Both the position numbers and the translations under genes were made by a program. 64,000 nt of DNA, taken from positions 124,001-188,000 of the IMG/VR virus record IMGVR_UViG_3300033153_013547; one strand, given 5' to 3'. The stretch is from a virus. Shown in pieces: positions 16,185-35,300 of the stretch (position 1 is its first letter; every line of letters begins with the position of its first letter). The notes beneath the pieces are model-generated. The model worked only from the letters and a program-made list of their open reading frames with translations. It had not been told where the DNA came from and made no database searches.

Positions 16185-16526
16185 ATGTCCCCAGAAGAAG
16201 TTGGGCAATTGACGGGCGAGGCTTATGCAAATCATGTGGCTATGGCTGAGTTCATTCTCAATGTTCTCAGAGCAGAAAATACTCCAGTAAATACAGGAAA
16301 AGCATTGGTTCCATATAGAACTAATTTTTCCATCAATCTTGATATGTTGCTTGATCCCACGAAAGCTGCACAAGTTCAGGCAGAAAGAGCAAAACAAAAC
16401 CAGAACCAACTGGATCGCAAAGGCAAGCTAAAACAGCAGCACATGAGAATAATCCAGGAAGATCTGGGGCAAGAAGTATTCAAAGATTTTGGTATTGTGG
16501 ACAATGACGAGAATCAGACAAGCTAA
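16185..16526 (+). CDS. T-like part of the frameshifted tail assembly chaperone
   Basis: This is the -1 frame partner of the upstream chaperone. The frame is open from the slip site at 16107, giving SLDLARFNLENDQLAILDCL before the first ATG at 16185, so it should be read mainly as the end of a 328-aa GT fusion (15541-16107 joined to 16107-16526). The sequence LIIEACNMSPEEVGQLTGEA is typical of T-domain beginnings, and the Gln/Lys-rich C-terminus (QAERAKQNQNQLDRKGKLKQ) fits known T parts. The ATG at 16185 has no good ribosome site, so independent translation is doubtful. The T part is expected to recruit tube subunits while the G part coats the tape measure. Confidence 0.8.
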   Translation: MSPEEVGQLTGEAYANHVAMAEFILNVLRAENTPVNTGKALVPYRTNFSINLDMLLDPTKAAQVQAERAKQNQNQLDRKGKLKQQHMRIIQEDLGQEVFKDFGIVDNDENQTS

Positions 16527-16542
16527 TAATTATTAGATAGCT

Positions 16543-19500
16543 ATGCGTGAGTATGAAAGTGATCGACTCTATGGTGGGCTAAAAAATCTTGGCATTCTTG
16601 CAAGTGTTGCTACGCTCGGCGTATGGGGATATAGATCTGGTCACGTTGCCAAAGCAGCTAGGTCACTTATACAAACCGGCTTCCCTGCCGTAAGAGCAGG
16701 ATTACAGGCCTTAAAACACACTGAAGAAGCCTATACAGCTTCACACATTGGTATTGGTGATGCTGTCAGTCAGTTTGGCATTCATTACCAGCGTGAATTC
16801 AAAAAGCTACAAAAATTTTATGCCACAAGAACTGCCACGGGCAACCCCCTTGATTCAATAATAGGTGCTGCTACACATCTTCCTTCTCTTTTAGAATCTA
16901 TACAAAGCTTTGTAACAGCCATACCACGGGCAGACTTTAGTCGAATTGGCTTTGAAGAAGCAAAAGGAGACTTAATACGTGATCTTGGCAAAATCAACCC
17001 CAACAGAGTTGTATCAGAAGAATTTGCCTATAGTGTTTATAGGATGCTTGGGCTTGAATCCCAAAAATTCACCCCCATATCTATTGGTGGACTTCATGTA
17101 AATGTAAATCAATTAAGCCAACTCACAACACACCATAAACCCCTGGACACCAGGGCAGTAAAAGCTGCATTTGATACTAGAAAAAAGAACCTCAAAGAAG
17201 ATTTTAGTAGATCTCAATTTGATGGTGGACTAACATTTATGAAGTGGCTACTGGGCGATCCCCAAGCTCGTAGAGCCACGTTATTTGATGTAAGACAAGA
17301 TCTAATCAATAGACTTGGTATTCGTGGCAAAACAGGAGCTGAAATAGACGAGAAGTTAGCAGCATATGTTGATAAAAGCTTAGACACGTTCAAACTGTCT
17401 GAAGATGCCAAAGTCATATTCAACGATCTCTTCTATGATCCCAAGGCAGCCAAAGAAATATTTTTAGATCACAATATCTTCAAAACAACAGAAGGGTTGT
17501 TAGATGCTAGATCAATAACGACATCTGTTGACGATCTTTTAGCCAGCCTCTCTAAACGTTGGAGAATTCCCCTAATCAAATGGAATCCATTTGATATGGT
17601 TCGTTCACAGCTTGCCCTAAAACAAACACAGCCATATGCAGTAGTTGTCACTGGTGATAAAATACCAATGCTGAGTGACAAGGACACAAACGTAATATAT
17701 TCCAAGATAGGTGAAAAACTATACAGATTCAAAAAGAAAGAAGCAGAAAAGTTTAGTTTTGAGCTTGTAGAAAAAATAGATTGGGGAGGTAAGAAAAGAC
17801 CATATAAAGTAATGCACCTTGATCCTTCAGCAGGCACAATGGGTGGCATTGTTGCCAAACGCCTGGGTCTCAGGGGTTATCATTCAGAAGCTCTGGACGA
17901 CATTGTGTTAGGCTGGGCAGCAAGGTTTGTTAAAGGAGGAATAGAGGGGGTTCCCGATCCCTATGTTTTTCTCAAAGAATTAGAACAGGGCAGATTGGTA
18001 GATTATGGTATTACAAGTCAGTCTCTTGAAAATCGATTAGAAAATTTTTGGAAAGGTGGCCTTCTCAATATAAATGTAGTTGCCATAGGCAAGTGGCTCG
18101 AAAAACAACTGGACAACCCCAAGATCACAGCAGAGGCAAGACAGAGCATTGCAGAATATGTTGATAGCCTCGTCTACAAACATCCTAAACAAGACAATAC
18201 ATTACACCTTGCCAGAATGATTGACAAGGCAATGGCAAAAGACACAGCATTTATGAGAATGTTCAAAGAGACAGGTGGTGTAGTCAAAGAACTGCTCAAT
18301 CTTTCTCCAGAACAACAGGAAGCCCGTATTCTTGAGATAGGAATGAAAAATGCTCTCAATATTTCTAAAAGATCTGTTGTAGAAGCAGGTGGTCAAAGAA
18401 CAATTTTAGAACGTATGGAAATGGATTTTGGAGTATGGAGTGTCTTAGAACACTTCAGACTGCTCAATAGTCCTGCCACTAGCATGAATGCCTTTATTAC
18501 TGGTGGACATATTACAGAATCTATGGCCCAGGAGATGGCAAGTCTCAAGATTCTGGATACATATTTGTATAGCATTATGAGAATGGCGCCAGCAAGAAAC
18601 AAGCTTCATTGGATGACACATGAAGGACATCAACTGGCAGCATTTGAAGCATTTAGCAAAACTCCAGATTGGGCAAGAATATTAAGAACACATTATGAAC
18701 CCTTAGACTCAATACGTATTCAAGATGCACTGATAAAGAAAAATGTTACGGCAACAGAAATTTATGAAAACCTAGCAAGGATCAACAAAGCAGCAGATAT
18801 CAGTGAAGTAGCAGGCATACTATATGACACAACCGTCGATGTAGGCGAAATGTTTCTCTCTGCGTTTGGATTCAGGGCCCAAGATTATGGAAGCTCAACC
18901 CTAATGCCACACTATTTTGCCGTAACACTATCAGAACAAATGGAGCTTCTAACGGGAATGATGGGTATTAGGCCATCAAACTCGTTGTGGGCCAAATCAC
19001 CCTTTTCTTTGGGCTTAGCATGGGCAGGTATTGAGGTGGCCTTTGGAACAGCAATCAATAGTTTCAACGCAGCAGATCTTGCCATGAGAGGCGCTGGTTT
19101 CAGGGGCCCCCGTCAATTTGCCATGGATGCTTGGGCCAACGCCAATCTACTCCTGGGTCTTGCTAGTGGCAAACTCAAAGAAACCCAGGATTATTATGCT
19201 GAGGGGGAAGAAGAAATAAGGGCCAGCAGATGGTGGTCATTAGGCAGCACCCCATGGGAAGGTGGAAGAATCAAATTCACTGTTCCCAACCTATACAGGC
19301 GTGTTGGAGTAAGAGACGTATACTACGAACAGAAATGGGGTGGAGAATTACAGGCTTTGGCCCACTCTTCATACCCATCCATACTAACACCATTTGCTCC
19401 AATAAGGCATTTCCTAACAGATAGATATTATTATGAACGTCTTCACCTGAAAGATGAACCTGTTCCACTGACTGGTGAATTGTTTGAACCCTCTGCACCA

Positions 19501-22464
19501 GGTGCTGGCTTACTCAATAACATGCTTGGTTTCATAATGAAACCACAGATAGGCATGCACACTGCAGAAATGCATCAAGCCATGAGATCTGATAGCATGC
19601 TTAGCACTGGTATTGATACAACCCCAAGAACAGGTGTGGATCAAGCAAGAATAAACACATTGTTCAGTCACAGAATAGTCACATCAGGTGCTGCTGGCCC
19701 AAGACTGGGTGCCAATAGACCAATATCTACACCTGATCGTTGGGGAACACAACTGGGAGATGATAGAAATAACAAAAATTTAGAAATGCGTGGAGCAATA
19801 ACAGCAGCCAATTTAGCATCAGGTAGCCAAGGCTCACCTTCACGTTTGGGTATAGCAGACTCTACTAGCCCATTCAATGCTCATCTAATAGACTACACAA
19901 GATCACAAATGGAATTGGCAGGTATTTGGGGTTACTATGGCCAAAACCTCACTGGACTAAACAACAGAATCTATAGAATGGAAACTGGTAGAGCAGGATA
20001 TTCCATATCAGATGCCATACAAAAAGCAAATGTAGGATCATGGTTGCCTATTCCAATGTTTGGGGAAATAATAACAGAGGTGCCAAGAAGAATTGTTGGT
20101 GGTGCCCCTAAGGATTATGTAATAAATCCTTTGAGAAATACTATGCCTACGTGGCTTCCTGACAGATTCAAATATGGGAATCAATATAACCGTTTGTCAT
20201 ATGGCCAATATAGGCTTCCGTCGCCAACTTACGAAGCACTGAACAAAGTAGATAGAGAAAGGATTGGTGGATCAACTATTGGCTTACCAATCAATGAATT
20301 GGCTGAAAAAATAGCTGGATTTGACAGAACAAAGATGGGGGCAACAGCTGTAACAGGCACTTTGATGCATAAAGCAATGTTACAAGAATTATTTCAAATG
20401 GGCAAGGTAATTGCTGTTGAAAAAGCAGTAGATGATCAGCAGCACAACATGTATGGATACATAGATGCCATAGTAGAAATAGGTGGACAACCAATGGTTG
20501 TTGATCTAAAAACTACTAATGCTATGAAGTTGCAAAGAATGAGAGAAGGAGAAATTCCTGAAGTATACAAGTCTCAGATCAATTATTATATGTGGGCTGC
20601 CAATGCCTCTATGGGTGCTTTGTATGTTGTAAATCGTGATAACCCAGCAGATAAAATGTTTTGGACAATGAAATTTGACGAAGGCAGACTACTTGACGAC
20701 TTCATCAAATTAGAAAAGGCCAGGGCAATGGTTAGAAGGCTCATTGAACAAGGCTATATTTCTCCATATGAAAGCTATAGGGACTTGGATAGGGCTAAAA
20801 TTTTGGCTGATGTTGCCCCTTATTCTGACGAATTTTCAGACACATTTGAAAGACTTTTGGCTGAGCCAGAAAAAGACATAACCAGACAAGAAGAACTTAA
20901 CAAACTAAAACTGAAAGTGAATAGGATCAAGTCAGGAGATACTTTTGACGAATATTTGTGGAGAAACCCTACAAAGGTCGTTGATGTTCAGAGCATGATG
21001 GTTGAAGATGATAATACCATAACCATGACATATAATTTCAGAGGCAAGAAAAGAACTCATACAGGTGTTCTTGCTGGGGCTATGCCAATAGAAGGTTATG
21101 AAGTGGCATTCAACAAAGCTCTCAAGCAACTAATGCCCATTGAAGCACTAGAAAACGTTAGAATAATGCCTGATGATCCTAAATCAAAAATCATCGTATT
21201 TACCAAGGGAGGTAATAGTGTAGCACAACAATTAGTGGACCTTCATCTTGGTTTGCCCGCCACAACAGGCAGACAAGAAGATAGAGAGGCTTTAATGAGA
21301 CATCAGGGATCATATGCTTGGGAATGGTTCACTCACTTAGATTCTCCTATGCACACCAAATTTGGGAAAGCAGATGCCTGGGAAGAATATAAAAGAAGAG
21401 TTGTATATGGCACAAGATATACATCTCCATTCACCCGTCCTATAAAATATACAGGACACATGTTAGAAGCCCTTGCTGGACACGACAACCCTATAGAAGC
21501 AGCCTTTGGTGGAGCCATGGTTGGAGCACTTATTGGTAGCACAGCAGGTAGATTAGCAGTGGGTGGCATGGCAAAAGGAGCAATAGCAGGTAGTATTTTG
21601 GCAGTTGCAATTTCTGGTGGACGTCAACTCATTGATCTTTTCACTGGTAAGGCTATGGTTCCACCAGAAGAAAGAAAATCAAGAGAGATAGAGGATTATG
21701 TGGACAAACTTGAATATGTCAAGTTTAAAAGGCTCTTTGAATCTACTTCCTTGATGTTAGAAAGAGCAGGAATCAATCTGTCTAAAATAGCCAATATGGT
21801 TATGTCTGGTAAGACAGTAGTTGATGAAGTAATGCAACAATTCCCTAACTATGGTCCTTTGATCAAAAGAGGGCTGTATTATAAACAAGAATATGAAAGC
21901 ACTATGTTTGCATTGAGTAGAGCCAGTGATATGAGAACTATTCTTAGAGCTTTACCCAAAAGAGAAAGACAATATTATTTGGCTTTCAAAAACTATCACC
22001 AACATAATAAAAAACAAATATTGAAACTAGCATCTCCATCACTGAGAAAGGCTCTGGCTATCACGTGGGGAGAAGACATGCCAGAGGGGGAATCTATAGA
22101 CAAATACTTCCAGTCTCATTGGCTACCAGAGCCCAGTTGGACAGGATGGCAACCAGATACATCTATCAGTGATTATAAGGTAGTTTTGGCAAGAGAAGAG
22201 GGGGTTGAATACCATGAATTGGGCATGTGGGAAGACTCAGTACAAAGAACCAGGATGTGGCAAGCTCAACCACGTATGCGTCATGGAACTGGCGTCAATA
22301 TGCAAAAAAGGATTAGAGAATTGTTAGGTAGAAACGGCCTGTCTGATATAAGTATTCAGATCTTACAGTCAACATCAGACAAAGACATTGATATAAACTT
22401 CACTATTCGGGAGGATGCATCCAGAAGTGCTGCAGTAAAATATGCGGCTAGTCTGGAAATGTAG
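16543..22464 (+). CDS. Giant virion protein 1 with RecB-like PD-(D/E)XK nuclease domain
   Basis: 1973 aa, directly after the tail chaperone pair where a tape measure gene is expected; no clear ribosome site, so translation may be coupled. The N-terminus has a hydrophobic stretch (LGILASVATLGVWGY). Residues ~1265-1400 hold a RecB/Cas4-type nuclease: GTLMH with H1276, E1293, GYIDA with D1308, VVDLKTT with D1321 and K1323, and Q1345-x3-Y1349, the QxxxY motif. All expected catalytic residues are present, so the domain should cut DNA in a metal-dependent way. A Gly/Ala-rich membrane-like segment lies at ~1655-1690 (GAMVGALIGSTAGRLAVGGM). The C-terminus ends with short beta strands (DIDINFTIRED). 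The rest, mostly helical, is unrecognised. I infer a tail-lumen protein, possibly ejected with DNA and combining tape-measure and nuclease roles. Confidence 0.75.
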   Translation: MREYESDRLYGGLKNLGILASVATLGVWGYRSGHVAKAARSLIQTGFPAVRAGLQALKHTEEAYTASHIGIGDAVSQFGIHYQREFKKLQKFYATRTATGNPLDSIIGAATHLPSLLESIQSFVTAIPRADFSRIGFEEAKGDLIRDLGKINPNRVVSEEFAYSVYRMLGLESQKFTPISIGGLHVNVNQLSQLTTHHKPLDTRAVKAAFDTRKKNLKEDFSRSQFDGGLTFMKWLLGDPQARRATLFDVRQDLINRLGIRGKTGAEIDEKLAAYVDKSLDTFKLSEDAKVIFNDLFYDPKAAKEIFLDHNIFKTTEGLLDARSITTSVDDLLASLSKRWRIPLIKWNPFDMVRSQLALKQTQPYAVVVTGDKIPMLSDKDTNVIYSKIGEKLYRFKKKEAEKFSFELVEKIDWGGKKRPYKVMHLDPSAGTMGGIVAKRLGLRGYHSEALDDIVLGWAARFVKGGIEGVPDPYVFLKELEQGRLVDYGITSQSLENRLENFWKGGLLNINVVAIGKWLEKQLDNPKITAEARQSIAEYVDSLVYKHPKQDNTLHLARMIDKAMAKDTAFMRMFKETGGVVKELLNLSPEQQEARILEIGMKNALNISKRSVVEAGGQRTILERMEMDFGVWSVLEHFRLLNSPATSMNAFITGGHITESMAQEMASLKILDTYLYSIMRMAPARNKLHWMTHEGHQLAAFEAFSKTPDWARILRTHYEPLDSIRIQDALIKKNVTATEIYENLARINKAADISEVAGILYDTTVDVGEMFLSAFGFRAQDYGSSTLMPHYFAVTLSEQMELLTGMMGIRPSNSLWAKSPFSLGLAWAGIEVAFGTAINSFNAADLAMRGAGFRGPRQFAMDAWANANLLLGLASGKLKETQDYYAEGEEEIRASRWWSLGSTPWEGGRIKFTVPNLYRRVGVRDVYYEQKWGGELQALAHSSYPSILTPFAPIRHFLTDRYYYERLHLKDEPVPLTGELFEPSAPGAGLLNNMLGFIMKPQIGMHTAEMHQAMRSDSMLSTGIDTTPRTGVDQARINTLFSHRIVTSGAAGPRLGANRPISTPDRWGTQLGDDRNNKNLEMRGAITAANLASGSQGSPSRLGIADSTSPFNAHLIDYTRSQMELAGIWGYYGQNLTGLNNRIYRMETGRAGYSISDAIQKANVGSWLPIPMFGEIITEVPRRIVGGAPKDYVINPLRNTMPTWLPDRFKYGNQYNRLSYGQYRLPSPTYEALNKVDRERIGGSTIGLPINELAEKIAGFDRTKMGATAVTGTLMHKAMLQELFQMGKVIAVEKAVDDQQHNMYGYIDAIVEIGGQPMVVDLKTTNAMKLQRMREGEIPEVYKSQINYYMWAANASMGALYVVNRDNPADKMFWTMKFDEGRLLDDFIKLEKARAMVRRLIEQGYISPYESYRDLDRAKILADVAPYSDEFSDTFERLLAEPEKDITRQEELNKLKLKVNRIKSGDTFDEYLWRNPTKVVDVQSMMVEDDNTITMTYNFRGKKRTHTGVLAGAMPIEGYEVAFNKALKQLMPIEALENVRIMPDDPKSKIIVFTKGGNSVAQQLVDLHLGLPATTGRQEDREALMRHQGSYAWEWFTHLDSPMHTKFGKADAWEEYKRRVVYGTRYTSPFTRPIKYTGHMLEALAGHDNPIEAAFGGAMVGALIGSTAGRLAVGGMAKGAIAGSILAVAISGGRQLIDLFTGKAMVPPEERKSREIEDYVDKLEYVKFKRLFESTSLMLERAGINLSKIANMVMSGKTVVDEVMQQFPNYGPLIKRGLYYKQEYESTMFALSRASDMRTILRALPKRERQYYLAFKNYHQHNKKQILKLASPSLRKALAITWGEDMPEGESIDKYFQSHWLPEPSWTGWQPDTSISDYKVVLAREEGVEYHELGMWEDSVQRTRMWQAQPRMRHGTGVNMQKRIRELLGRNGLSDISIQILQSTSDKDIDINFTIREDASRSAAVKYAASLEM

Positions 22465-22469
22465 CAATC

Positions 22470-25400
22470 ATGGCAATATACATTCCAACTTCTTCTACTG
22501 TATATGCAAGCGAAGACCTATTGCGGTTACCTGCCATGCTTGGAACAGAAGATGTTTTTGCCAAGTATCTTAGCAATATAACTGACAGAAAACATACTAT
22601 TACACTTTTTGTGATAGAAAGTGACAATCTACCACAAAAAAGGCTGGAAATTGTTTTGGAAGGAACAAAGATACGGGTTTATACAGAAACAACCACTACA
22701 CCAATCATTTTTTCCAATACAACGTTTACCAAAATGGAACCGTTTATTCGTAATGGCAAATTCGAAACCGCAGGACGTAACGTGGAAGTTAGAATACTGG
22801 CTCGTGATCTAGCCATTCTCATAGAAGAAACCAAATACCAGTCTGGTTCAGCATTCATACCTGATTCAATAGTGCAAATGGTCACAGCAGTTCAAAGAAG
22901 GACAGATCCAGAAGGAACGATAATCAACCTTATCACCGCTCTCGAAGAAAAAATGGCTCAAGTGCCCATAGGAAGAATAGGAGCCCAATTACCACGAACA
23001 CCAGGATTACAAGCGGGAGAGCATTTTATTACAGTTCTTGACGATCTAAAAAAGAGAGATGTGCTAAACGAAGGAATTAGAGAACTATCAGAAGCACGAA
23101 TCAGTGGAATAGCCAGAGGACAAACACCCGATATGGCTCAAAAAAAAACTCAAGCAGTCACTGCCATAGTTACCAAAGATTATCTGGATAGATTTTTTAG
23201 ACAAATAGTAGGTGGTGGCAAAAAAACTGTTACAGAAGAATTCGAAGAATTTGTCAAAACCAATAGGGTTGCCCAAATAATTGAAGATCTTGTAGATTGG
23301 CATGGCTGGATCACTGCCTTCTATGGTTATACAGGGCCTACTCAAGAGATTATAGAAACAGCCTTTGAAGAAGCTGCAAAGGAATACATTGGCATTGTAG
23401 GCCTACTATCTCCCGAGGAAAGAAGTAATATAAAGACCAGATTCATTGCCAAAGTAATGGATGGGATCAAAGAAAGAAAACAAGCAAATTTGCCATATGA
23501 AGTTAGTGTGCGTCTTAAGAAACTCAAATCCAGTGGGGCAGTAATAGATGTTGGCAAATTTGCCTTGTCAGCCCCAGATCAAATGACCAAATCCTTGGGA
23601 GCCAGAAATCTTAGTGATGCTTTTGGAACAACAAGAGTTCCTTCTGGGCTCAAAGAACACGTTAATCAGATTCTTGCTGCCCCACTACAGATCAGTAAGC
23701 CACTATACAGACAATACACACCTTACCAAGATCTAATATCCCTGATTGATCAACTAAAATCCATTCCTAAGTCTGGTGTTATTCCTAGAATATTAGACTT
23801 TGAGGGGTGGATTGGAGACAACATTACCCTCACAACCCAACTGGGTGTTCTGGATGTTGCTGATTGTGCCAAGAACTTCACAGAGATTACCAAAGCAGGC
23901 TCTCAGTTTATGATGTCCAGCAGACCTCATGGCATTCATGGTAAAGTAGATGAGCAAACAGCTACTTATTTGAAAGATGAGTTGCTCAAAATGTGGAGCA
24001 AAGCCAAGGCATGGTCACTTGATCCTAGAGAATCTCATTTCAACCCCAACGACAAAAACAGCAAACTGCTCATGAATCTTGGTAGAATGATTATTGCTGG
24101 TTCAGAAGATATGGAAACACAAGAACTCAGAGCTGCTACCATGGCCCAACTAAATGTTGAGGGCATTAGTGCAGACACATTATTAGACTGGTATGAAAAA
24201 GCACTTCATCAAAAAATGAGACACCACAAGTTTGAAGGCAAAGGAACAAAAGCAACACTCTCTGAATTTCAAGAGCTCATCAAAACCACATTCAAAGATG
24301 GTAGGGTTTTCATGCACAACCCAGAGGGTGCTGATATTACCCACATATACAATCTTTTAGAAAAAGGATCAGATCCTATAGCCTATGCAGAAGCCAAAAA
24401 ATTAGTGCAAAGCAAAACCACAGATAGTATTGCTATATTTCAGTATTTACAAGAATTGGCCATGGTTAGGGGGGACAAGTCTTGGGAAGATATGGCTTCA
24501 ACGTCTTTTGCCATGAACAATTTAGTCAAGAAGTATGAAAGCCTTATGGGGGGATTGACCACTGCAGATCTCCACCTGCTTGGTAAAAACGATGCTTATG
24601 CTGCAGGTCGACTCATGATTATCAGTCTGAATGCAGCAATGAACGACACCACCGCACATAGTATGGCTGATCAAGTATTTGCCAAAAGCGTTACATCTGA
24701 AACAATAACCAATAACTTACGATTTGTAGCAGAACTTTTTGATGAAAATCTTGCAAAAAACAAAAAACTCTTTACAAACATAGAAGATTGGATCAGAGTG
24801 GCCAGTGGTATTGATCCCTCAGAAGATTTGGGCTCTAAATTAGTTCATGAAGGAATTGAGGTTTATAGTATAGTAACCAAGCCTCTAAAAAGATCAGATC
24901 TTGAGCTATGGGCACAAAGATTCGATGTGACTATGGAGACCCCTGTCGGACTGGAACGACTGGAAATAAAACCACCACGAGGGCTACGTTTAGGACAAGT
25001 AGTTACTGATGATCCATCTGTATGGAGGGCGGGCACGGCGCTCAAAACACTTCTCCAAATGGACGCAAAAACCAATGAAATTCTATTTAGCTTCACAGAT
25101 ATGAATGGCATCCAGCATAAATTTAGGGCCAAAAACATATTAGCTCTAAACAACTTACTGGCTCAAGGAGGCTTTGAAACCACAACAGAAAAAGGAATGT
25201 CTAGATGGATCAACACACTCATGGACGATGCTCGAAGACTATTCGACAATCTCACTGGTTCTTTCAATGAAGATCCAAACATGATAGGACGAATAATTGA
25301 AATACATAGCAACAACATAAGAAACATTATAGATCATTCAACAAGAGACCCACAAATTGCGGGTATACTTGATAAAACATCAGAATTACTTGCTGCAATA

Positions 25401-26756
25401 AAATCTGGTGAACCACTATTTGACACAACCAATCCTCTAGGACATACTTTTATGCAGAACATGTTTGATCTACACAAGCTTGACTGGTTGGAGGGAGGCA
25501 GCAAGTCCATTGCAGAAGCAGTAATATTTGTGGCACAACACAAAAACAATCTTGAAGTTGTTGACACTATGCTAGGAAACCAGATGCTTTTACATCATCT
25601 AACCAAGAGCATGTATACTGGTGATGCTAGAAGTTTTCTAATGTATGATCAAGAATTAGCCGATAGATTAGGAAAATCAATGGAGGAAATTAGTTTTTAC
25701 AAATATAGCCCCCTGGCTGAAGGCACAGTGCTTGACAATGCTGTTTTGAGAATTGGGGACACAGATTCCTCGGTCATAGTATCAATGAATGCTCATAAAA
25801 CCCACGACGACATCAGGGCAATTTTGAGCAGAACCACAGACAAACATTCCAAGGCAGCAAGATTCTTGGCAGATGAATTTTTGGGTGAAACAATAGATCA
25901 AAAAACCTATGCACTGTCTAATAAAACAGAAAGAAAAGTGTTAGGAGACAGAATAGCAGCACAAATAATCAAGGAATCACAAGAGATCAATACCTTCAGA
26001 AGAACACATTCTGAATTGTTATACGAACCAACTATCGCTCCTGGCGTAGCCACGGGCAAAGGAAGAAGCGCCTGCGGAAGGGCTATTTTTGATGTTATCC
26101 ACGATGAAGAATTCATAGGCAGAATAGTGGGGAAAGGCCACACACTGTGGGAAGAACTCAAAATAGCTTCAGACACAGGTAGATTTAGAAACTTCCCAGA
26201 TGCCTTGATGCAATACGGTAATTCTATTATAGACACTATATCCGTGGCAGCAGAAGAAAGTGGACGTCTTAGAGACAAGACTTCAGCAGCCAACATAATT
26301 ATGGCATTCAATAATATGGGCATATTTGAACCTGCAAGTGTCGAGAATCGTTTCTTTCCACAAATGCCAAAAATACAGGCTGATATAAGTAAAACTGTTG
26401 TAAAGAACCTGGGTCGCATGGGAATGGCAGCAGCAGCAATTCCTCTAATTGCATTAGGTGCTGCTAGGCCCCCACTTAGAGGACTAGAAGAATTACCAGT
26501 AGATGAAGCATTTGATCCAGATTTTCTGCAAGGCAAAACATCAGCTGCTGGACCACCAATTGTTATTCAGAAACCACTTGGAATTACAATAAATATTGAT
26601 GCCAAGGGCACAGAAGGCAGATATGATTTGTCTAATATAATGAATAGCTTGAGACACACCATGGGAATAAACGCCGAACAGCGCGTGACAACGTCGTTTA
26701 ACAAGCTCTCTGATATTGAAATTGAGAGGCTCATGGAAATGGAGGCCATAGATTAA
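22470..26756 (+). CDS. Giant virion protein 2 with DEDD (DnaQ-like) exonuclease motifs
   Basis: 1428 aa, starting five bases after giant 1; its stop overlaps the next start (TAATG). Residues ~430-720 contain three motifs in the order of DnaQ-superfamily 3'-5' exonucleases: ILDFEGW (D443, E445), FMHNPEGADITHI (H616, N617, D622) and HLLGKNDAYAAGRLM (H702, D708), the last preceded by an amphipathic helix as in the family. Two points weaken this: motifs I and II are 179 residues apart, longer than usual, and the final H-to-D spacing is one residue longer than the standard H-x4-D. A hydrophobic segment at ~1312-1332 (MAAAAIPLIALGAA) is followed by a Pro-rich linker and a tape-measure-like tail with ITINIDAKG. 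The remaining helical regions are unrecognised. Likely packaged with its two giant neighbours. Confidence 0.7.
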   Translation: MAIYIPTSSTVYASEDLLRLPAMLGTEDVFAKYLSNITDRKHTITLFVIESDNLPQKRLEIVLEGTKIRVYTETTTTPIIFSNTTFTKMEPFIRNGKFETAGRNVEVRILARDLAILIEETKYQSGSAFIPDSIVQMVTAVQRRTDPEGTIINLITALEEKMAQVPIGRIGAQLPRTPGLQAGEHFITVLDDLKKRDVLNEGIRELSEARISGIARGQTPDMAQKKTQAVTAIVTKDYLDRFFRQIVGGGKKTVTEEFEEFVKTNRVAQIIEDLVDWHGWITAFYGYTGPTQEIIETAFEEAAKEYIGIVGLLSPEERSNIKTRFIAKVMDGIKERKQANLPYEVSVRLKKLKSSGAVIDVGKFALSAPDQMTKSLGARNLSDAFGTTRVPSGLKEHVNQILAAPLQISKPLYRQYTPYQDLISLIDQLKSIPKSGVIPRILDFEGWIGDNITLTTQLGVLDVADCAKNFTEITKAGSQFMMSSRPHGIHGKVDEQTATYLKDELLKMWSKAKAWSLDPRESHFNPNDKNSKLLMNLGRMIIAGSEDMETQELRAATMAQLNVEGISADTLLDWYEKALHQKMRHHKFEGKGTKATLSEFQELIKTTFKDGRVFMHNPEGADITHIYNLLEKGSDPIAYAEAKKLVQSKTTDSIAIFQYLQELAMVRGDKSWEDMASTSFAMNNLVKKYESLMGGLTTADLHLLGKNDAYAAGRLMIISLNAAMNDTTAHSMADQVFAKSVTSETITNNLRFVAELFDENLAKNKKLFTNIEDWIRVASGIDPSEDLGSKLVHEGIEVYSIVTKPLKRSDLELWAQRFDVTMETPVGLERLEIKPPRGLRLGQVVTDDPSVWRAGTALKTLLQMDAKTNEILFSFTDMNGIQHKFRAKNILALNNLLAQGGFETTTEKGMSRWINTLMDDARRLFDNLTGSFNEDPNMIGRIIEIHSNNIRNIIDHSTRDPQIAGILDKTSELLAAIKSGEPLFDTTNPLGHTFMQNMFDLHKLDWLEGGSKSIAEAVIFVAQHKNNLEVVDTMLGNQMLLHHLTKSMYTGDARSFLMYDQELADRLGKSMEEISFYKYSPLAEGTVLDNAVLRIGDTDSSVIVSMNAHKTHDDIRAILSRTTDKHSKAARFLADEFLGETIDQKTYALSNKTERKVLGDRIAAQIIKESQEINTFRRTHSELLYEPTIAPGVATGKGRSACGRAIFDVIHDEEFIGRIVGKGHTLWEELKIASDTGRFRNFPDALMQYGNSIIDTISVAAEESGRLRDKTSAANIIMAFNNMGIFEPASVENRFFPQMPKIQADISKTVVKNLGRMGMAAAAIPLIALGAARPPLRGLEELPVDEAFDPDFLQGKTSAAGPPIVIQKPLGITINIDAKGTEGRYDLSNIMNSLRHTMGINAEQRVTTSFNKLSDIEIERLMEMEAID

Positions 26757-29700
26757 TGACACAGACACCTTCACACATCAGTATTGAAAATCTACACAGG
26801 CAAGTAGTAGATAAAGTCATTGCACTGGATATGCATAGCATTTTACACACACTTGAAGAATCAGGAGCCATTGGGGGTGGCCTTACTCAAGAAGAACAGC
26901 TCAATACCATTCTCAATGCTGTAAAAAAGACGTCTTGGGGACAAGGCATCTCTCTTGAAAAACTATCCACATCACAAACTTCAGCATTGACGGGGCCATA
27001 TGACAGAAACAGGGTGGTTGCAGCTATTACTGCATCTGCTGAAGCATCTTCTATAATGAAGATAGTATTTAATCTCCAAAATTACAAGAGCAAAATCACA
27101 GGCAAGGAATTGTTTGATCAAGATATGATAGGGCCAAGGCTGTTGTTTTTATTAGAAAAACCACCTTCTGATGTGGAATCTATTGCCAAAACCTTTTCTA
27201 CATCTGACCAGCTGTCTAATAGAAACACTATTGCTGCAATGTTAAATACCTTCAACTACCTGGCAGCAATAGACAAAGTACATAGTGACTGGGATAAAAG
27301 GTTGGCAGAAGGGGAAACCCCCCAACAATTACAACGAACTGTCAATGATTTAGTAAATAAGATAAAAACCGACGTTAATCGAGCCAACGAATATAATCTT
27401 GATGCACAACATCTTGCAACGAGAATGCGTAAAAAAGATACATTACAGCAATCTCTGAAAGTAGTAAGTGATCCAAAACTCATCCGGCTTGAATCAGACA
27501 TTAGACAGGGCATTAAAGCAAAGCTTTCTGGAGACACCACTGGCAATGCTGTTTTGCTAATAGCTGATGTTGATGCTAAGGGCAATCAAGTAGGAATGTA
27601 TAAATCCATGAGGGAATTTTTGACCTCTTATGGATTCAATCAGCCAGAAATTATTGCAGAAGCTCTGGATATACAAATACAGCATCCACAAAACTTTGAT
27701 CAAGCAACAAAAGCACTGAAGGCTACAGATAAACTTCCTGAATTTCTTTTCAAGTTGAAAAAGGGCGACAGAGAAAGGGTGTTTAGGGGCAGGCTTGGTC
27801 CTGCTCCAGTTAGACACCCCCAAATAGACATAACGAAAGGTTTTCCCTACAATCTTGTCTTGGCTGCCCATCCTGATAGCACAATACCTGGTGGTAAAGC
27901 AGCCCAGCGAGCCACAAGTGGGATAGGAGTTAATCAGGTATACGTGAGTCTTCTAAACTTAGCCAGAATAAACGCAGACTATGATGGGGATACAATCATA
28001 AATTACATAAATACCAATCTAAAATCTGAGATACTTCAATACATAAAAGAACATGGTAAAAAAGAGAGCCCTGGGCTAGTATTAGTTGGGGCCATGGATA
28101 TGATAATTAAATCCCTGGCATTCGGTGAGGAAACCAAGAAAGAACTGATAAGTGCTGGAATGCTACGCTCCAAGCTGAGAGAACGAGTAGGCGTAATGGC
28201 TCGCCAAAGAGCAAACTTTGTATCCAAAAGAATCCTCAAAAAGTCTTATATCCCAGGACAAACAATGGTATTAGAGATTGGGGGCATCAAATATGGATTG
28301 GAAGCTAATCCTGCTCAGGGAATAAAAGAAATAGAAGTCCTCATAACTGAAACAATTATGAAGAATTTTGACAAAAACATGAATCCTGCAAAAGCATTTG
28401 TCAGAGCAGAAGAATTGATACATCAAGAGGGGGATATTTATGTTTTTGATCATCTTGCCAACAAAAAACTTTCTGGAATAGAAGTTGTAAAGTGGCAAGA
28501 GAAAAATATAAACCGTGCTCTCATTGAAGACAATCTACTGAAATGGGGATTGCACCTAAGTGATCGTGTAAAGAGACTGGGCGCAGACAATGCTCTCATA
28601 AAACAATTCATGGCAAAATTGGCAGACACAAAAGATCCAGACAATTTCTTAAGATCTATGGAAGCCATAAATGACATAGCACAAGATATTATCAGCAGAG
28701 GAGATGTTTCTGAAGAAACAGTCAGCAAAATTATAAAAGAACATGCCAGAAAAACGGGCATTGCTTTTGAAGCACACAAAATACTTAAAGGGGGAGTAGG
28801 GGAAATTGGAGTGATACAGTATGCGTTCTTTGAACACGTACACAATAACATCAAATATTTGTCCAATATTGGTGCAGAACAATTAACAGATCTCAAAAAA
28901 TTAGCTGATTTCTTTGAGGTAATGGCACAAATTCCGTTAGAAGCAAAGCACAAAACAGGTGGTTCTTTCAAAATGATAGCCCACATCCTTCGCACGGTTC
29001 TCAAGGGTGGAGGTGTCAATGTTAAGGACACGGCTCAAGACATAACAAACATTCTAATGCGTGGAAAGATGCCAGAAGTACTCGCAAGTGTCACGGCTAC
29101 TGCTTATCCGGTTGGCCAAATTTGGGAAGGCGAGGGTTTTACTCTACATCGTACAAACCTAAGAAACTGGGTAGAAGAAGCTATTCGTGTTTTGGCAAAT
29201 CCGCGTATATCCACAGCAATACAAGAACAAATTAGCAACAAATCAGCATGGACAGGGGGAGCGGGAGCAGCGGCAAGGGTTGCGGGCGGCATGGAAAGCA
29301 CTATTATTGAACTTACTGGAACCAAAGATATTACCCAAGCATTTGAGGGAGCACTAAGCATCAACCCAAAAGACCCAGGCGCCGTTGATGTTGTCAAAGA
29401 ACTTCACCAACTTAGTACTTCTAGTTTTAAAAGACGTGACTACGACAGTTTTACTCGCAAGCCCAACGAATTAGCAACCATCATTTCTGAAAAAGCAAAA
29501 AAGAATGTTTATGAAATTGCTCGTGTTACAGACAAAAGTGGCATATCTAAATTAGAACTAAGACAAATCTATGATCCTAACAAACCAGAAACCTTCGACG
29601 CCATAGCCTCGCGGCTACCTGCTGGAGTAGTTCCAGACGAAGACACAATACAATTTGTTATAAATGATAGGGTGCGAAAGCAAATACAAAATGGAAGAGC

Positions 29701-32332
29701 CGATTATCTCATGCCTGAATTTATGGAAACAGAGCTGAGAAAAAGAGGCGTAATGATAGAGGCAATGCAACGATTAGAAGGTGAAATGCTATCTCTATCT
29801 AAGGTCAGCACAATAGCAGATGAAGAAAAAGCAGCACTATCCAAGAATTTATATGCCTTTGCAATGGAATGGCATGAAAAAGTTCATGGTGGGAAAAGAG
29901 GGGCAGAGCATTCGTTTATCGAAGCATTTGGTGATTATCTAAAGAACACTGGTATTACTGCGTTAGACTTAGAAGAAAGTGGTCATATAGAACAATATGG
30001 GAAAAAAGTCATGTCTGCTATGGCAGATCTTAAAATAATATTTAGCAGCCCAACCAGTGGTCAAATAGCAAATCTACTGGGTGGTTCAATTGCATCAATA
30101 CCTGCAATAACAAATGCTGAAGAATTACAACAACTCGTAGCAACAAGAGTATTTGATCCTATGGCCAGAGTATTTGCAAAAGGCCAGTCAACAGAACTGG
30201 GAATCAACTTTATCAACGAAGGTGCCGTGCAAAATCTTGTCAACAAAGTCAGAACCATGGAAAGCCAGGGCATCAATCAGAGTGAGCTACAAAAAATATT
30301 TGCAAAAATTACTGGCTTAAATGAAGAACTAATCACAGATCCCCTTATGCAAGACATTGCAGACAAATTTCAAAAACTTCTCAATCAGTCTGAGGGTGCA
30401 ATGTGGATCCTAAATTGGCAACAAGTAGCTACAGTGCAAGAAATGAAGATCAGTGAAGAAAGTGCAAAAATCTTTAGTAAAGCTCTGCAAGGAATCTATG
30501 CTTCTGGTGAAGAAGCACTTGATGTTGTGCCAGGCACAAAACAATATGAAAGATTCTTGCAGCAATATGCTGCAGCTGAAGGAAAACACTCTCCTCAGTA
30601 TCTCAGAGATCATGGTATTCCTTTTACTGACGCCACAGGCAAACCACGCACTATTCGGCCAGAACATATGGGGCTAAACTTCCGCCCACTTATTCATGGC
30701 GATAAATATGCCATGGTGCAATGGAAAGGCTTTCAAGCAAGTCAAATCCCCTTTGCCAAGGCCCACCTATCTGGCCTTGCGTTTCCAGTAGGAAGCCTTA
30801 TGGAAGAAGTTATAGAAGAAGCGGGTAAAAAACCGGAAAACGTATACAATCGGCTTGCAGCTTTCATGATGAGTGGTGATCTAAATGCTATTGATTCATG
30901 GCTTGGGGAAGCAGAAAAAACAAATATTTTGATACCACGAAATCCCTTCAACAAATGGGCACGTGCTTTTTTAGGAGCAGCTCCTGGGTGGAACGCACAT
31001 AACGAGCGAGCAACTGCAACGGGTGTGGGACCCACCGTTGTGATAAATCTCGTAGAGGACTTGGGTCTTAGAGATGTTTTTGTTACATTGAGAGAGGGGC
31101 AATCTCCAGAATTTTCAGATATGATGACAAACATAATTGCTGAAGAAGCACCTGGTGGAAGCATAGGATTATATCGTATGGTAGAAGAATTGTCACGAAT
31201 ACGTACCAAACCACTGGTTGCACTTGAAAAACAGGGAATAATCAACCTACGTTATCTGGATCAAAACATGCTGCGTGATCCTCTGTTAGAACGAGCAACA
31301 ATGGGAGATCAAGTTAGACTGAGAAACACCATAAGACTAACAGAGCTTGGCATAGACAACACTACTAAAATTGATGAAATATTGCTCAAAAAGATCAGGG
31401 CAACTTTCCCAGCAGATGATAGCATAATTGTTGGACATAATGATTTAATCACCCAAATCCTAGCAGCAGACAAAAAACGAAATATTCTAGGCACAAAATT
31501 TGGGGCCATTGGCTACACAAAGGGAATTTATGACTATCTACAAGTAGCCATGGAAATGTTAGATGACATAATGGCTCCTGAAGATATTCCCATTGGACAG
31601 AGAAACCAGTGGGTTATAGAAAATATCCTTGCTGGATTTATCAACCCATCAGATTTACCCATAGATGAAGCAAGAGTTATAGATGCAGGCAAAAATATTT
31701 ACAAAAGGAATTTATACAATCTTGGTCAATCTTCTGAATGGATCAATAGATATGCAACAGATTATTCTGATACATTTAGAAAATCTATAGGAGCCAATGT
31801 TCATGATTTTATAACACAGGTAGGAGAAAGAAACCCAAAGATCATGGGGACACTTGGCCTCATAGCATTGGGAGTGGGAGCTTTTTCTGTGGCAAATATG
31901 CTGGATTATACCAGTCTAAAGGCTAATGAAGACAATCTTCATCAGTATTCAACTAATAAAAGATTAGCAGATTCCATGGCACATGCCAAGACATATGATC
32001 CGCGAATCATTGTTATAGATGGCATAGCCGCAAACGAAACTACTGAAGCAATAACTGGACTATCTAGTCCTCATTCAAGGGCCATGCAAAAGTTTGGCCC
32101 TATTGTGAATCGTCCCCCAAGTGGTGGCAGTAATGGACTTTTTAGAAGAGAAGGTATGGGGTATAACATACCCATATCAGAAGCCAGATCAGCAAGATCT
32201 CTACAAGAAATAAGCAGTGTTATATCTAATAGAAAGTTCAATGTAAATACTAATATAAAAGTTGTTCAAAGGGCTAATGCCGACAGTATAAAGACATATT
32301 ATAATAACTATGTAGAATATGGCAGTTTCTAA
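26756..32332 (+). CDS. Giant virion protein 3: predicted RDR/QDE-1-type RNA polymerase
   Basis: 1858 aa, start overlapping the previous stop (TAATG). Residues 406-412 are NADYDGD, the metal-binding signature of the large RNA polymerase catalytic barrel (NADFDGD in bacterial beta-prime), with D408, D410 and D412. Flanking motifs follow the order of RDR/QDE-1-like enzymes: an upstream ADVDAKGN...YKSMREF (ends at 288) resembling the end of the first barrel, RGRLGPAPVRHP at 344-355 like the R-P-HP entry of the second barrel, and KKLADFF...EAKHKTGG ending at 736 like the conserved LA-F-AVD-PKTG helix. The lysine-bearing first-barrel motif is not clear. A zincin-like HEKVH is at 1040-1044, and a hydrophobic segment at ~1696-1716 precedes a beta-type C-terminal tail. 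I infer a virion-borne polymerase that transcribes early phage genes after ejection. Confidence 0.72.
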   Translation: MTQTPSHISIENLHRQVVDKVIALDMHSILHTLEESGAIGGGLTQEEQLNTILNAVKKTSWGQGISLEKLSTSQTSALTGPYDRNRVVAAITASAEASSIMKIVFNLQNYKSKITGKELFDQDMIGPRLLFLLEKPPSDVESIAKTFSTSDQLSNRNTIAAMLNTFNYLAAIDKVHSDWDKRLAEGETPQQLQRTVNDLVNKIKTDVNRANEYNLDAQHLATRMRKKDTLQQSLKVVSDPKLIRLESDIRQGIKAKLSGDTTGNAVLLIADVDAKGNQVGMYKSMREFLTSYGFNQPEIIAEALDIQIQHPQNFDQATKALKATDKLPEFLFKLKKGDRERVFRGRLGPAPVRHPQIDITKGFPYNLVLAAHPDSTIPGGKAAQRATSGIGVNQVYVSLLNLARINADYDGDTIINYINTNLKSEILQYIKEHGKKESPGLVLVGAMDMIIKSLAFGEETKKELISAGMLRSKLRERVGVMARQRANFVSKRILKKSYIPGQTMVLEIGGIKYGLEANPAQGIKEIEVLITETIMKNFDKNMNPAKAFVRAEELIHQEGDIYVFDHLANKKLSGIEVVKWQEKNINRALIEDNLLKWGLHLSDRVKRLGADNALIKQFMAKLADTKDPDNFLRSMEAINDIAQDIISRGDVSEETVSKIIKEHARKTGIAFEAHKILKGGVGEIGVIQYAFFEHVHNNIKYLSNIGAEQLTDLKKLADFFEVMAQIPLEAKHKTGGSFKMIAHILRTVLKGGGVNVKDTAQDITNILMRGKMPEVLASVTATAYPVGQIWEGEGFTLHRTNLRNWVEEAIRVLANPRISTAIQEQISNKSAWTGGAGAAARVAGGMESTIIELTGTKDITQAFEGALSINPKDPGAVDVVKELHQLSTSSFKRRDYDSFTRKPNELATIISEKAKKNVYEIARVTDKSGISKLELRQIYDPNKPETFDAIASRLPAGVVPDEDTIQFVINDRVRKQIQNGRADYLMPEFMETELRKRGVMIEAMQRLEGEMLSLSKVSTIADEEKAALSKNLYAFAMEWHEKVHGGKRGAEHSFIEAFGDYLKNTGITALDLEESGHIEQYGKKVMSAMADLKIIFSSPTSGQIANLLGGSIASIPAITNAEELQQLVATRVFDPMARVFAKGQSTELGINFINEGAVQNLVNKVRTMESQGINQSELQKIFAKITGLNEELITDPLMQDIADKFQKLLNQSEGAMWILNWQQVATVQEMKISEESAKIFSKALQGIYASGEEALDVVPGTKQYERFLQQYAAAEGKHSPQYLRDHGIPFTDATGKPRTIRPEHMGLNFRPLIHGDKYAMVQWKGFQASQIPFAKAHLSGLAFPVGSLMEEVIEEAGKKPENVYNRLAAFMMSGDLNAIDSWLGEAEKTNILIPRNPFNKWARAFLGAAPGWNAHNERATATGVGPTVVINLVEDLGLRDVFVTLREGQSPEFSDMMTNIIAEEAPGGSIGLYRMVEELSRIRTKPLVALEKQGIINLRYLDQNMLRDPLLERATMGDQVRLRNTIRLTELGIDNTTKIDEILLKKIRATFPADDSIIVGHNDLITQILAADKKRNILGTKFGAIGYTKGIYDYLQVAMEMLDDIMAPEDIPIGQRNQWVIENILAGFINPSDLPIDEARVIDAGKNIYKRNLYNLGQSSEWINRYATDYSDTFRKSIGANVHDFITQVGERNPKIMGTLGLIALGVGAFSVANMLDYTSLKANEDNLHQYSTNKRLADSMAHAKTYDPRIIVIDGIAANETTEAITGLSSPHSRAMQKFGPIVNRPPSGGSNGLFRREGMGYNIPISEARSARSLQEISSVISNRKFNVNTNIKVVQRANADSIKTYYNNYVEYGSF

Positions 32333-35300
32333 CAATTACACAGAGACCGTAAATCTTGGTGGCGTGACGTTCAATGTCCCCATAACTAACATCAAAACAT
32401 CTGTCCAGAGTAACATAACGTCTTCCAATTCAATTAGAGAATCTGGATCTGCTAAATTACAAACAGATCAGATTGTAGAATTGCTGGAAATAACGTTTTA
32501 TGCCTTTGATCAAAATGGGCTGAAAACTGCTGCAAGCCTCATGCAACTCTATAAAAATATACCCTTTGTATGGGTTGCTTCTCCATATATCAATGCTGGG
32601 CTCAATATATGTGATGTAGCACTGCATAGTGTTACTATTTCTAGTGTTCCTGGGTTCCCCAATACATATAAAATAGACTTGGTTCTTGCCCCCTTTGACT
32701 CGTTTGCTATAACCAACTGGCCCACCCTATTATCTGGCACAAATCTTGAGCTGTATTATACATATCAAACATATGTAGCAAACAAGACTGCAAAAAGACT
32801 TGGCTCAACCAAACAATATGGTGTTATGTTACCTACTGATCCTCCTGGGCAACCAAATCCCTTTGACATTTTTGTGCCATCTGATGACTTTTTGGAAGAG
32901 ACCAAAATGGCCATGGACATGATTGATAATGCCCTAAAGAATGCTATTACATTTTCCAATAAAAACGAAGATGGATTGTATGCAGTAATCACACGCGACA
33001 TAGGAACAGACAATACTCCAGAAGAAATGTCTAAGAAACTGGCTGATCAACTCAAAGGATATTTATTAAATGCTGTGGCCAAAGATGCAGACGGCAATGA
33101 AATTAGTTTATTTACCAAAAACAAAAATGGAGACATTGTGCCAGCCCCATGGGACAAATGGCAACAGTGCAGAATATTTGATGTTTATGATCCTGACACA
33201 GGCAAAATACTTACTGGTGCATCTGCAGAAAGCAAGTTCCTAAATCTTTTTGAAGCCATAGAAGAAGCCATTGGGCAAAACTCTCTTGAAGAATACATAA
33301 GAAGAATAGATGCAAATCAATCTTTAGCAACCTTTCTCAATTCTTTTGCCAGTATTGCCAAAAATACAGATCTATACACACATGCAGCTACAGCACTCCA
33401 AATCAACGCAGTAGATATAAATTTAATTAGGCAAGTAATAACAGGAGAAAATCTTCAACTCAAAGTCAAGTTGCCTAATTATTCCTACGGACAGGAGGGT
33501 GCAGCAATAAACAGGGGATATTGGGATTATCTTCTGATGGGTGTAAATATAGATGTAAATATTGGAGGAAATTTCAAAGCCCAAGCTCCTACAACAACCA
33601 ATCAAACAGTCCCAGATCACTTAGATTTATTTGTTGAAGACATTGACTCACTAAAAAGACCAGGTTTCCTTGGTTTACTTTATGACATATATCTAGGAGC
33701 CAGAGGCTTTCAAAATATATTGTCTGGAGCCACAGAATCACTTGCAAAATTGTTTGATAGAGACAGATATAGAGAAAGTGGATATATTCCAGCAGGACTA
33801 ACCCAATTTTCCCCACAGCAGGTTGTTGTTTCATTCAACAACAAATTTTCTACTGGATATTTGCAAAATGCTCTGACTGTAAGACCCATATATTCCTATG
33901 TTGGATCAGGAGACTTCACAATACAAATACTAAATACTGTTACAGATCCTGACCATAGTGAACTGAAAAAATTTACAGATACAATAGATTTGGCTTTCTT
34001 ACAAAACAAAAAGTTCCAGGGAGAATTGCCTGCAGGATTTATTGCTATTAGAGACCCATTGGTTCAGTCAATGGGTATTTTTGAGTGTCTGATAATTGGT
34101 TATTCTGTTACTCCTATGCCAGAATATCCCAATGTTTTTCATGTAGAACTTACTACAACTGATTTCAATTTACAGAAACGCACAGAATACATGATCAACC
34201 GCATTGATCCTTATGGAAAAATACATGGTGGCGATGACAAAAGCACTGCTGCCGCAACAGCACTATCTTCTTCATTGCTTGATCCTGTTTTTGATCCTGC
34301 GTCACAATTTTCATCGCAAGAACCGAGAACACTTGAGACGGCGTTTGGAGAGCAACAAATACAATACGATCCAGAATATAAGCCACCCACAACCAGCAAT
34401 AGTGCCTCTGGTAGCGAAGCCTACTATGATTATGAAAACATAGATGGTGGAGATATATTATGCGTCAAAGAATTATATCAAGACTGGTTCAGAGCCAAGT
34501 ATTCACTCAGACAGTATAATTGTTACCCAGATATTATTTTACCAACACTACACGAGGCACAAATTATATTTGGTGATTTTGACAAGCCCATATCCATTGC
34601 TACTGGTGCAACCAATATTGACAACCCCTCCACTGCTGAAAACAAAACAGAAGTTCATGTGCTAAAAGACTTCAAAGCATACTATGAATGGCGTCAGGCA
34701 GGGCTGATCAACGGAGAAAGAACAGATCCATTCATGGACTATGGGGGAGATATCAATGTTACTAAATTAGATTGGACTGAAACTGGTGAATATGTAGTGC
34801 CCTATTTTTTCTTCTATCCATCAAGGATTGAAGTAATCAGTGATGCAAATGCAAATGTCAATCAATATGACACTCCACTTATAGGAGGAGATGATCAACT
34901 AAACCGAGGAGATAATCAACTAAACCTCAGTAGTTTCAATATAGACGGAGATATCAACGGAACAACAGAACAACCAGATGGCTCCTCTGCCATTACCGAA
35001 AAAGAAAAAATATACGAATCTCCATTTGGTGCCGCTGCGCGGGTGTTTGGGCTGGCGCCTGTGGCGCCGCCCCCTACAGCACCAGCTGGATCCATAACTG
35101 ATGTTACAGAAGACATTGCAGAAAATTCGGAGTCAGGCACGCCTGCAACAACAAAAGAAAAAAGCACGATGCAGGAGAAGATGGTTGGAAAGAAACGTAT
35201 CAAGAAAATTAAGGAAATACAAAAACACCAGGCAGAACACCCCACTACAGATGATGAAGTCGGCACGGAAGACACAGCATTTACAATGCCTCTTGGTGAA

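Follow-up and report, generated by a model that had tools for sequence, protein, structure and literature searches.

Three consecutive giant proteins, designated P1, P2 and P3, fill the tape-measure slot of a jumbo phage genome, and we estimate at roughly 75% the probability that they are tail-lumen proteins of a contractile phage of the 0305phi8-36 type that also deliver enzymes, namely a virion RNA polymerase (RNAP) and nucleases. The genes lie in a window of 64,000 bases (positions 124001-188000) of a 261,124-base IMG/VR virus record, and the record, with its head genes, probable non-virion RNAP (nvRNAP), ribonucleotide reductase and terminase, represents a full jumbo phage genome. An earlier, sequence-only reading of the window had proposed that enzyme-bearing proteins stored in the tail tube share the functions of ruler and membrane channel. 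The enzyme-bearing part of this proposal is supported and extended here by a nuclease domain in P1, a probable exonuclease triad in P2 and an RNAP motif in P3, the polymerase having been missing from that reading.

The three giant ORFs are real, lie on the same strand and are nearly contiguous, as an ORF check of the window confirmed (Table 1). They are located between two small genes in the position of tail assembly chaperones and the gene for a baseplate hub protein, whose baseplate hub region is accompanied by a phage lysozyme domain (residues 1758-1891) and by hydrophobic segments near the C-terminus. The position of the two small genes fits the chaperone G/GT pair that had been proposed, but neither is recognised by any profile and their identity is positional. 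The description of P1-P3 as something other than simple coiled-coil rulers agrees with their composition, since the longest stretch free of proline and glycine is at most 66 residues in each. The noted total of 5259 aa is correct but not unusual, for at locus L027 of a related virus the P1 homologue and the second giant sum to 2142+3119 = 5261 aa. Three giants in the slot are likewise true of this phage but are not the norm of its lineage, in which the slot holds two. It is the three-way division, not the total size, that is the unusual feature of the window. At 0.15 nm per residue, a calculation from residue counts gives about 296 nm for P1, 214 nm for P2 and 279 nm for P3, 789 nm in sum. A conventional tape measure gene elsewhere in the genome would have spoken against the proposal; the tape-measure family profile PhageMin_Tail matches neither P1, P2 and P3 nor any other part of the 261-kb record, and no tape measure could be recognised among the other large ORFs that were scanned. 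The phage is taken to be contractile because a sheath gene is present.

Table 1. Features of the tape-measure slot and of the split RNAP genes. Positions refer to the window unless marked as record positions.
Feature	Position	Strand	Evidence
RNAP beta-type subunit	record 24087-25763	-	Rpb2_6 E 1.9e-14
RNAP beta-prime-type subunit	record 25723-27390	-	Rpb1_2 E 4.6e-8; PDB E 1.8e-9
Tail sheath protein (contractile tail)	9513..12209	+	phrog_16991 tail sheath E 1.5e-47
Two small tail-assembly-chaperone-position genes, 190 aa and 113 aa	15541-16113, 16185-16526	+	position only, no profile match
P1, conserved tape-measure-slot protein, 1973 aa	16543..22464	+	homologues in same gene order
P1 aa 1265-1403, predicted inserted PD-(D/E)XK (RecB/Cas4-like) nuclease	20335..20751	+	phrog_1706 E 7.8e-13; PDDEXK_1
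P1 aa 1672-1690, Gly/Ala-rich hydrophobic segment, glycine-zipper-like	21556..21612	+	best hydrophobic 19-mer
P2 (1428 aa), probably the half of the relatives' second giant that bears the exonuclease	22470..26756	+	triad, tail module, Gly/Ala segment
P2 aa 443-708, probable DEDD-type triad	23796..24593	+	D443-x-E445, N617-x4-D622, H702...D708
P2 aa 1314-1332, Gly/Ala-rich hydrophobic segment, 115 aa from C-end	26409..26465	+	best hydrophobic 19-mer
P2 C-terminal beta-alpha-beta-alpha tail module	26565..26753	+	family tail profile 10.3 bits
P3, 1858 aa, catalytic beta-prime-type barrel motif of predicted virion RNAP	26756..32332	+	motifs, alignment
P3 aa 350-732, predicted RNAP beta-prime core	27803..28951	+	R353-x-P355 ... 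N405/A/D408-Y-D410-G-D412 ... Q725-x2-L-x2-K731-H732
P3 aa 1696-1714, Gly-rich hydrophobic segment	31841..31897	+	best hydrophobic 19-mer
P3 C-terminal beta-alpha-beta-alpha tail module	32168..32329	+	family tail profile 7.9 bits
Lysozyme-bearing baseplate hub protein (2641 aa) that bounds the slot	32319..40244	+	Phage_lysozyme E 2.5e-14; phrog_20474 E 5.9e-71

A profile scan of IMG/VR viral contigs yielded 42 loci in total with related gene blocks, and tblastn with P1 identified Moorella phage MTATph1, Bacillus phage KLEB27-3 and Acinetobacter phage ME3, which share the gene order. Both the hub and P1 match MTATph1 and KLEB27-3; ME3 is matched by P1. Single-sequence scans of viral contigs found no direct relatives of P1, P2, P3 or the hub, and tblastn of P3 against phages and plasmids gave no match. 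The structural genes of ME3 are annotated as homologous to those of Bacillus thuringiensis phage 0305phi8-36, and through this annotation the homologous P1, hub and sheath, together with the conserved gene order, place the phage in the 0305phi8-36-like myovirus structural lineage. In the relatives the slot is occupied by a P1 homologue, mostly of 1940-2200 aa, followed by a second giant of 2250-3100 aa, or of 1400-1950 aa in more distant loci, and in about 30 loci this second giant sits between the chaperone-position genes and the hub. Its homologue in KLEB27-3, gp034, which corresponds to the RNAP-bearing giant, is annotated as a structural protein. According to the 0305phi8-36 genome description, the tape measure was assigned, mainly by length, to orf146, directly upstream of hub orf147 (PMC2147016), which is the position of the RNAP-bearing giant. 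In MTATph1 (L002:23321-30677) an IS21-like element encoding a transposase and IstB lies between an exonuclease-bearing giant, which has no visible RNAP motif, and the hub.

A Gly/Ala-rich hydrophobic segment and a short beta-type tail had been noted near the C-terminus of each giant. Both elements are present where they were described; the best hydrophobic 19-mers fall within these segments (Table 1), and the tails are found at residues 1948 (P1), 1372 (P2) and 1829 (P3). These features go beyond chance because they recur in relatives. The Gly-rich hydrophobic segment lies 108-133 residues before the C-terminus in 22 relatives of the second giant, compared with 115 residues in P2 and 163 in P3, and almost every second giant ends in a tail of the P2/P3 type. 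A beta-alpha-beta-alpha tail profile built from the last 75 residues of the relatives matches P2 and P3 with scores that none of 100 shuffles reached. The same profile does not match the tail of P1, which is of a different type and is visibly conserved among P1 homologues; in the P1 homologue of locus L010 the segment equivalent to that of P1 matches the Glycine zipper 2TM model weakly, below the cut-off. What the relatives have once, at the C-terminus of their second giant, is found on both P2 and P3, and this suggests that the two arose by the splitting of one such giant with duplication of its tail.

The relatives' second giants point to an RNAP. Nearly all contain one DxDxD motif in the context RYPT-x(~35-45)-ADxDGD, which corresponds to NRAPTLHR...NADFDGD of the RNAP beta-prime subunit, and within the aligned region of the best-covered set of 14 sequences a downstream G-x3-I-G ... 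Q-x2-I-x2-K is also kept. Upstream, the lysines of a GEKxT...KH motif are conserved, K247 being invariant and K284 nearly so. A DxDxD-containing giant was absent from the slot in L010, L030 and MTATph1. When compared with PDB, a 31-row profile that includes P3 matched the beta-prime chain of the AR9 nvRNAP best (E 8.7e-6), followed by phiKZ (E 2.4e-5) and by dozens of cellular beta-prime/Rpb1 chains, while for a 14-row profile without P3 the best match was the phiKZ RNAP (E 0.019). Two relatives matched RNA_pol_Rpb1_2 over the motif stretch (E 0.006). The AlphaFold model of the relative at locus L036 (pLDDT 70.4, pTM 0.64) was assigned by Foldseek with a probability of 1.00 to the largest RNAP subunits (beta-prime/Rpb1); it gave 243 PDB matches at E<=0.001, and the best 50 of these 243 are all RNAPs. 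Profile and structure searches thus show that the second giant of the relatives bears an RNAP region of the multisubunit type, with an RNAP fold. At their N-termini the same giants carry a DnaQ-type exonuclease, in which DxE, N-x4-D and H-x4-D are invariant (PDB match, E 3.7e-5).

In a library of viral structures (BFVD) the L036 model also matched A0A8S5SD80, A0A7R7G2L5 and A0A172Q0S6, which comprise a siphovirus 'minor tail protein' and other phage proteins, and from these matches tail-associated RNAPs may be more widespread. An ME3 protein is likewise found among the BFVD matches, and so is a second protein of the same phage.

P3 contains within residues 352-413 the sequence VRHP...NADYDGDT, in which R353-H-P355 precedes D408, D410 and D412, and P355 and the three aspartates are invariant across 31 aligned sequences, P3 included. 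Across 2.9 million viral contigs, DNA encoding NADYDGDT was found in 38 stretches, 33 of which are clearly RNAP beta-prime, four are not (two duplicated cases) and one is ambiguous, a specificity for RNAP in viral contigs of about 87%. An NRAP motif lies upstream in all but one of the 33, and the exception is clipped by a contig end. Further downstream, Q725-I-P-L-E-A-K-H of P3 resembles Q-x2-I-S-S-K-H-G of the relatives and SQTNLHSKHG of the phage's own non-virion RNAP, and P3 alone among the four giants of the window contains Q-x2-[ILVM]-x2-K-H. With a core profile built without P3, no other ORF of the record and none of 200 shuffles scored as high as P3, whose own score was weak (7.2 bits); a wide profile in the same jackknife test did not single it out. 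AlphaFold modelling of residues 1-900 with 30 relatives gave a pLDDT of 50 and a pTM of 0.27, with no meaningful Foldseek match. Single-sequence searches with P3 returned nothing significant (phmmer matches at E 0.2-0.5 were dismissed as chance), nor did hhalign of single P2 and P3 sequences against the relatives, and the assignment of P3 is therefore founded on motifs, their spacing and gene position. Segment profiles did not reveal the beta-type second barrel, with its two catalytic lysines, in either P2 or P3. The metal-binding DxDxD and the NRxPT-like motif upstream of it agree with the beta-prime-type double-psi barrel of two-barrel RNAPs, for P3 itself by motif and alignment. Taken together, these comparisons support the prediction that P3 carries the catalytic motif of an RNAP beta-prime subunit, inside a family of RNAP fold.

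P2 probably carries the triad of a DEDD (DnaQ-type) 3'-5' exonuclease, as judged from the arrangement of its motifs. The spacing of motifs I and II equals that of the relatives (174 aa), and motif III is H-x5-D, one residue longer than the usual H-x4-D. The combined triad pattern occurs in 15 of 21 relatives and in 20 of 5000 shuffles of P2; it was found in no unrelated large protein, the two matches among 123 both being duplicates of family members. No profile search recognised the DEDD domain of P2. With a probable exonuclease triad in one and an RNAP motif in the other, P2 and P3 look like the two halves of the relatives' single giant, and this division forms part of the best explanation of the slot.

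Among the three giants, P1 shows the strongest conservation across relatives. Its PD-(D/E)XK domain, scanned alone, scored 26.6 bits against PDDEXK_1 (cut-off 22) and belongs to this nuclease family by its profile match and by the motifs GTxxH, D, D-x-K and Q-x2-Y, with H1276, D1308, D1321-x-K1323 and Q1345-x2-Y1348 as the expected residues. A distance of 224 aa separates the conserved motifs that flank the domain in P1, against 61-64 aa in all relatives in which the two motifs could be found, and none of the relatives checked has the nuclease DxK motif. By this comparison, the predicted nuclease domain is an insertion absent from all relatives checked. P1-homologue genes have been invaded repeatedly (L011:7145-14377, L003:17106-24259, L041:4169-12070, L042:9794-17026): the gene of L011 is split by a LAGLIDADG ORF, those of L041 and L042 contain inteins, and that of KLEB27-3 is split by an unidentified ORF near the site of the nuclease insertion in the present phage. 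At the interrupted sites of L011 and KLEB27-3, a search for a group I intron found nothing above the Rfam gathering score.

Elsewhere in the record, a second RNAP of the multisubunit type is split over two genes (Table 1) that are adjoined by a gene for a SNF2-type helicase; this enzyme is probably the nvRNAP. Locus L048 is listed with record 24087-27390 for a split RNAP next to a SNF2-type helicase. A 919-aa ORF containing CDATDNDGDHV (record 69556-72315, minus strand; L050:12556-15312) was considered as a third two-barrel RNAP and rejected, having no profile or PDB support. Inteins are present in the genes for the ribonucleotide reductase and the terminase large subunit (record 103225-106446 and 115323-118220).

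By analogy with gp96 of Thermus phage P23-45, we infer a virion location, injection, channel formation, promoter use and activity for P1-P3. The proteins would be stored in the tail tube, with their C-terminal tails docked at the hub or tail tip. On contraction the slot proteins would exit first, and their Gly-rich segments would insert into the envelope as part of a DNA channel. At its inner face the RNAP, formed by P3 alone or with P2, would transcribe pre-early genes while the DNA arrives; these would include the genes for the separate non-virion RNAP, which would then take over. Possible tasks of the nucleases are the degradation of host DNA and the processing of the DNA ends that enter. 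A broader and more tentative proposal, which we place a little short of an even chance, is that throughout this ancient contractile jumbo lineage the protein assigned as tape measure is a virion RNAP to which an exonuclease is fused. In the present phage P2 and P3 would be separate tail-lumen chains derived from that protein, each retaining a membrane segment and a docking tail, and would jointly constitute a split virion RNAP where the DNA channel opens on its inner side.

Several other explanations bear on these proteins. The one that deserves most attention, doubtful as we hold it to be, is that P1 alone is the tape measure and P2 and P3 are ejected cargo without a role in determining length; the conservation of P1 and the narrow size range of its homologues are what it would predict. 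It conflicts with the assignment by length of the 0305phi8-36 ruler to the hub-adjoining gene (PMC2147016) and with the recurrence of the P2/P3-type tail in nearly all second giants. That P1-P3 are purely structural rulers or channel proteins whose enzyme-like motifs are decayed or coincidental is unlikely. The slot and the C-terminal tails are tape-measure-like and single-sequence searches detect the motifs of P2 and P3 only weakly, but extremely diverged relatives conserve the RNAP fold and catalytic triad, the NADYDGDT motif is largely specific for RNAP in viral contigs, and the P1 nuclease retains all expected catalytic residues.

It is similarly improbable that P3 is an RNAP without being part of the tail. 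In phiKZ and AR9 the virion RNAP is packaged in the head, and P3 could be head-packaged in the same manner or be non-virion. Jumbo-phage literature describes injection of a virion-packaged RNAP by phiKZ-type phages, which lends this alternative some weight. Against it stand the place of the gene, which in about 30 loci follows the chaperone-position genes and precedes the hub, the membrane-type segment and tail module of the protein, the assignment of the equivalent 0305phi8-36 gene as tape measure (PMC2147016) and the structural annotation of the KLEB27-3 homologue. Finally, nucleases and giant multidomain proteins within a contractile apparatus might recall effectors aimed at rival cells and not a machinery of infection, and contractile-injection effectors related to tape measures exist (PMC13277306). 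Such a role is very improbable for P1-P3, for the record is a full jumbo phage genome and an RNAP would be of little use in that role. The preferred reading thus remains that of enzyme-delivering tail-lumen proteins.

An RNAP in the tape-measure slot would apparently be the rule in a broad contractile jumbo lineage, where it has stood under hypothetical or structural annotations; a full-text literature search found no report of it in this lineage, with a listing possible in the supplementary survey of PMC10770324. Coupling of genome entry to transcription is testable in the cultured members KLEB27-3 and ME3, for which pre-early transcription independent of the host RNAP is predicted. The P1 nuclease indicates in addition that a tape-measure-slot protein can accept catalytic insertions. 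Phage 0305phi8-36 itself has a long contractile tail of 486 nm (PMC1817643). Its gene order (gp145, tape measure gp146, hub gp147; PMC2147016) is as found here, its two-gene chaperonin is the analogue of the two small genes in the chaperone position, and the last 60 residues of the tape measure, the only part alignable with a relative, resemble the present tail module. The RNAP noted for that phage is orf99, of the YonO/RdRP type, and the passages on gp146 report none; a 2021 survey of jumbo phages likewise lists 0305phi8-36 with a YonO-like RNAP only.

The pairing of a virion and a non-virion RNAP inferred for this phage matches phiKZ, AR9 and P23-45. The nvRNAP beta-prime chains of phiKZ and AR9 are among the best profile and fold matches obtained here, whereas their virion RNAPs are split over several subunits and lack tape-measure features. 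Phage N4 has a giant virion RNAP that is injected, as proposed here, but it is an unrelated T7-like palm-fold polymerase. Judged by description, the giant proteins of crAss-like phages (phi14:2 gp66) are also similar in having a virion RNAP fused into giant polypeptides proposed to be injected with the DNA, although these phages are short-tailed and of different architecture. The closest parallel by description is P23-45 gp96, a two-barrel RNAP in the tape-measure slot with a DFDGD-type motif and a membrane segment, encoded in a genome that also has a second, non-virion RNAP (PMC10770324). The same paper shows that the N-terminal RNAP of gp96 transcribes pre-early genes, and the tape-measure pore is its proposed site of action; the association of RNAP with tape measure is called unusual and previously unsuspected. 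P23-45 is non-contractile and its gp96 is one polypeptide of 5,002 aa (PMC10770324), whereas the present virus is a contractile jumbo phage in which the predicted RNAP is placed on a separate protein, split from the one that probably bears an exonuclease, and in which the multisubunit type, with split genes, is seen for the probable non-virion RNAP.
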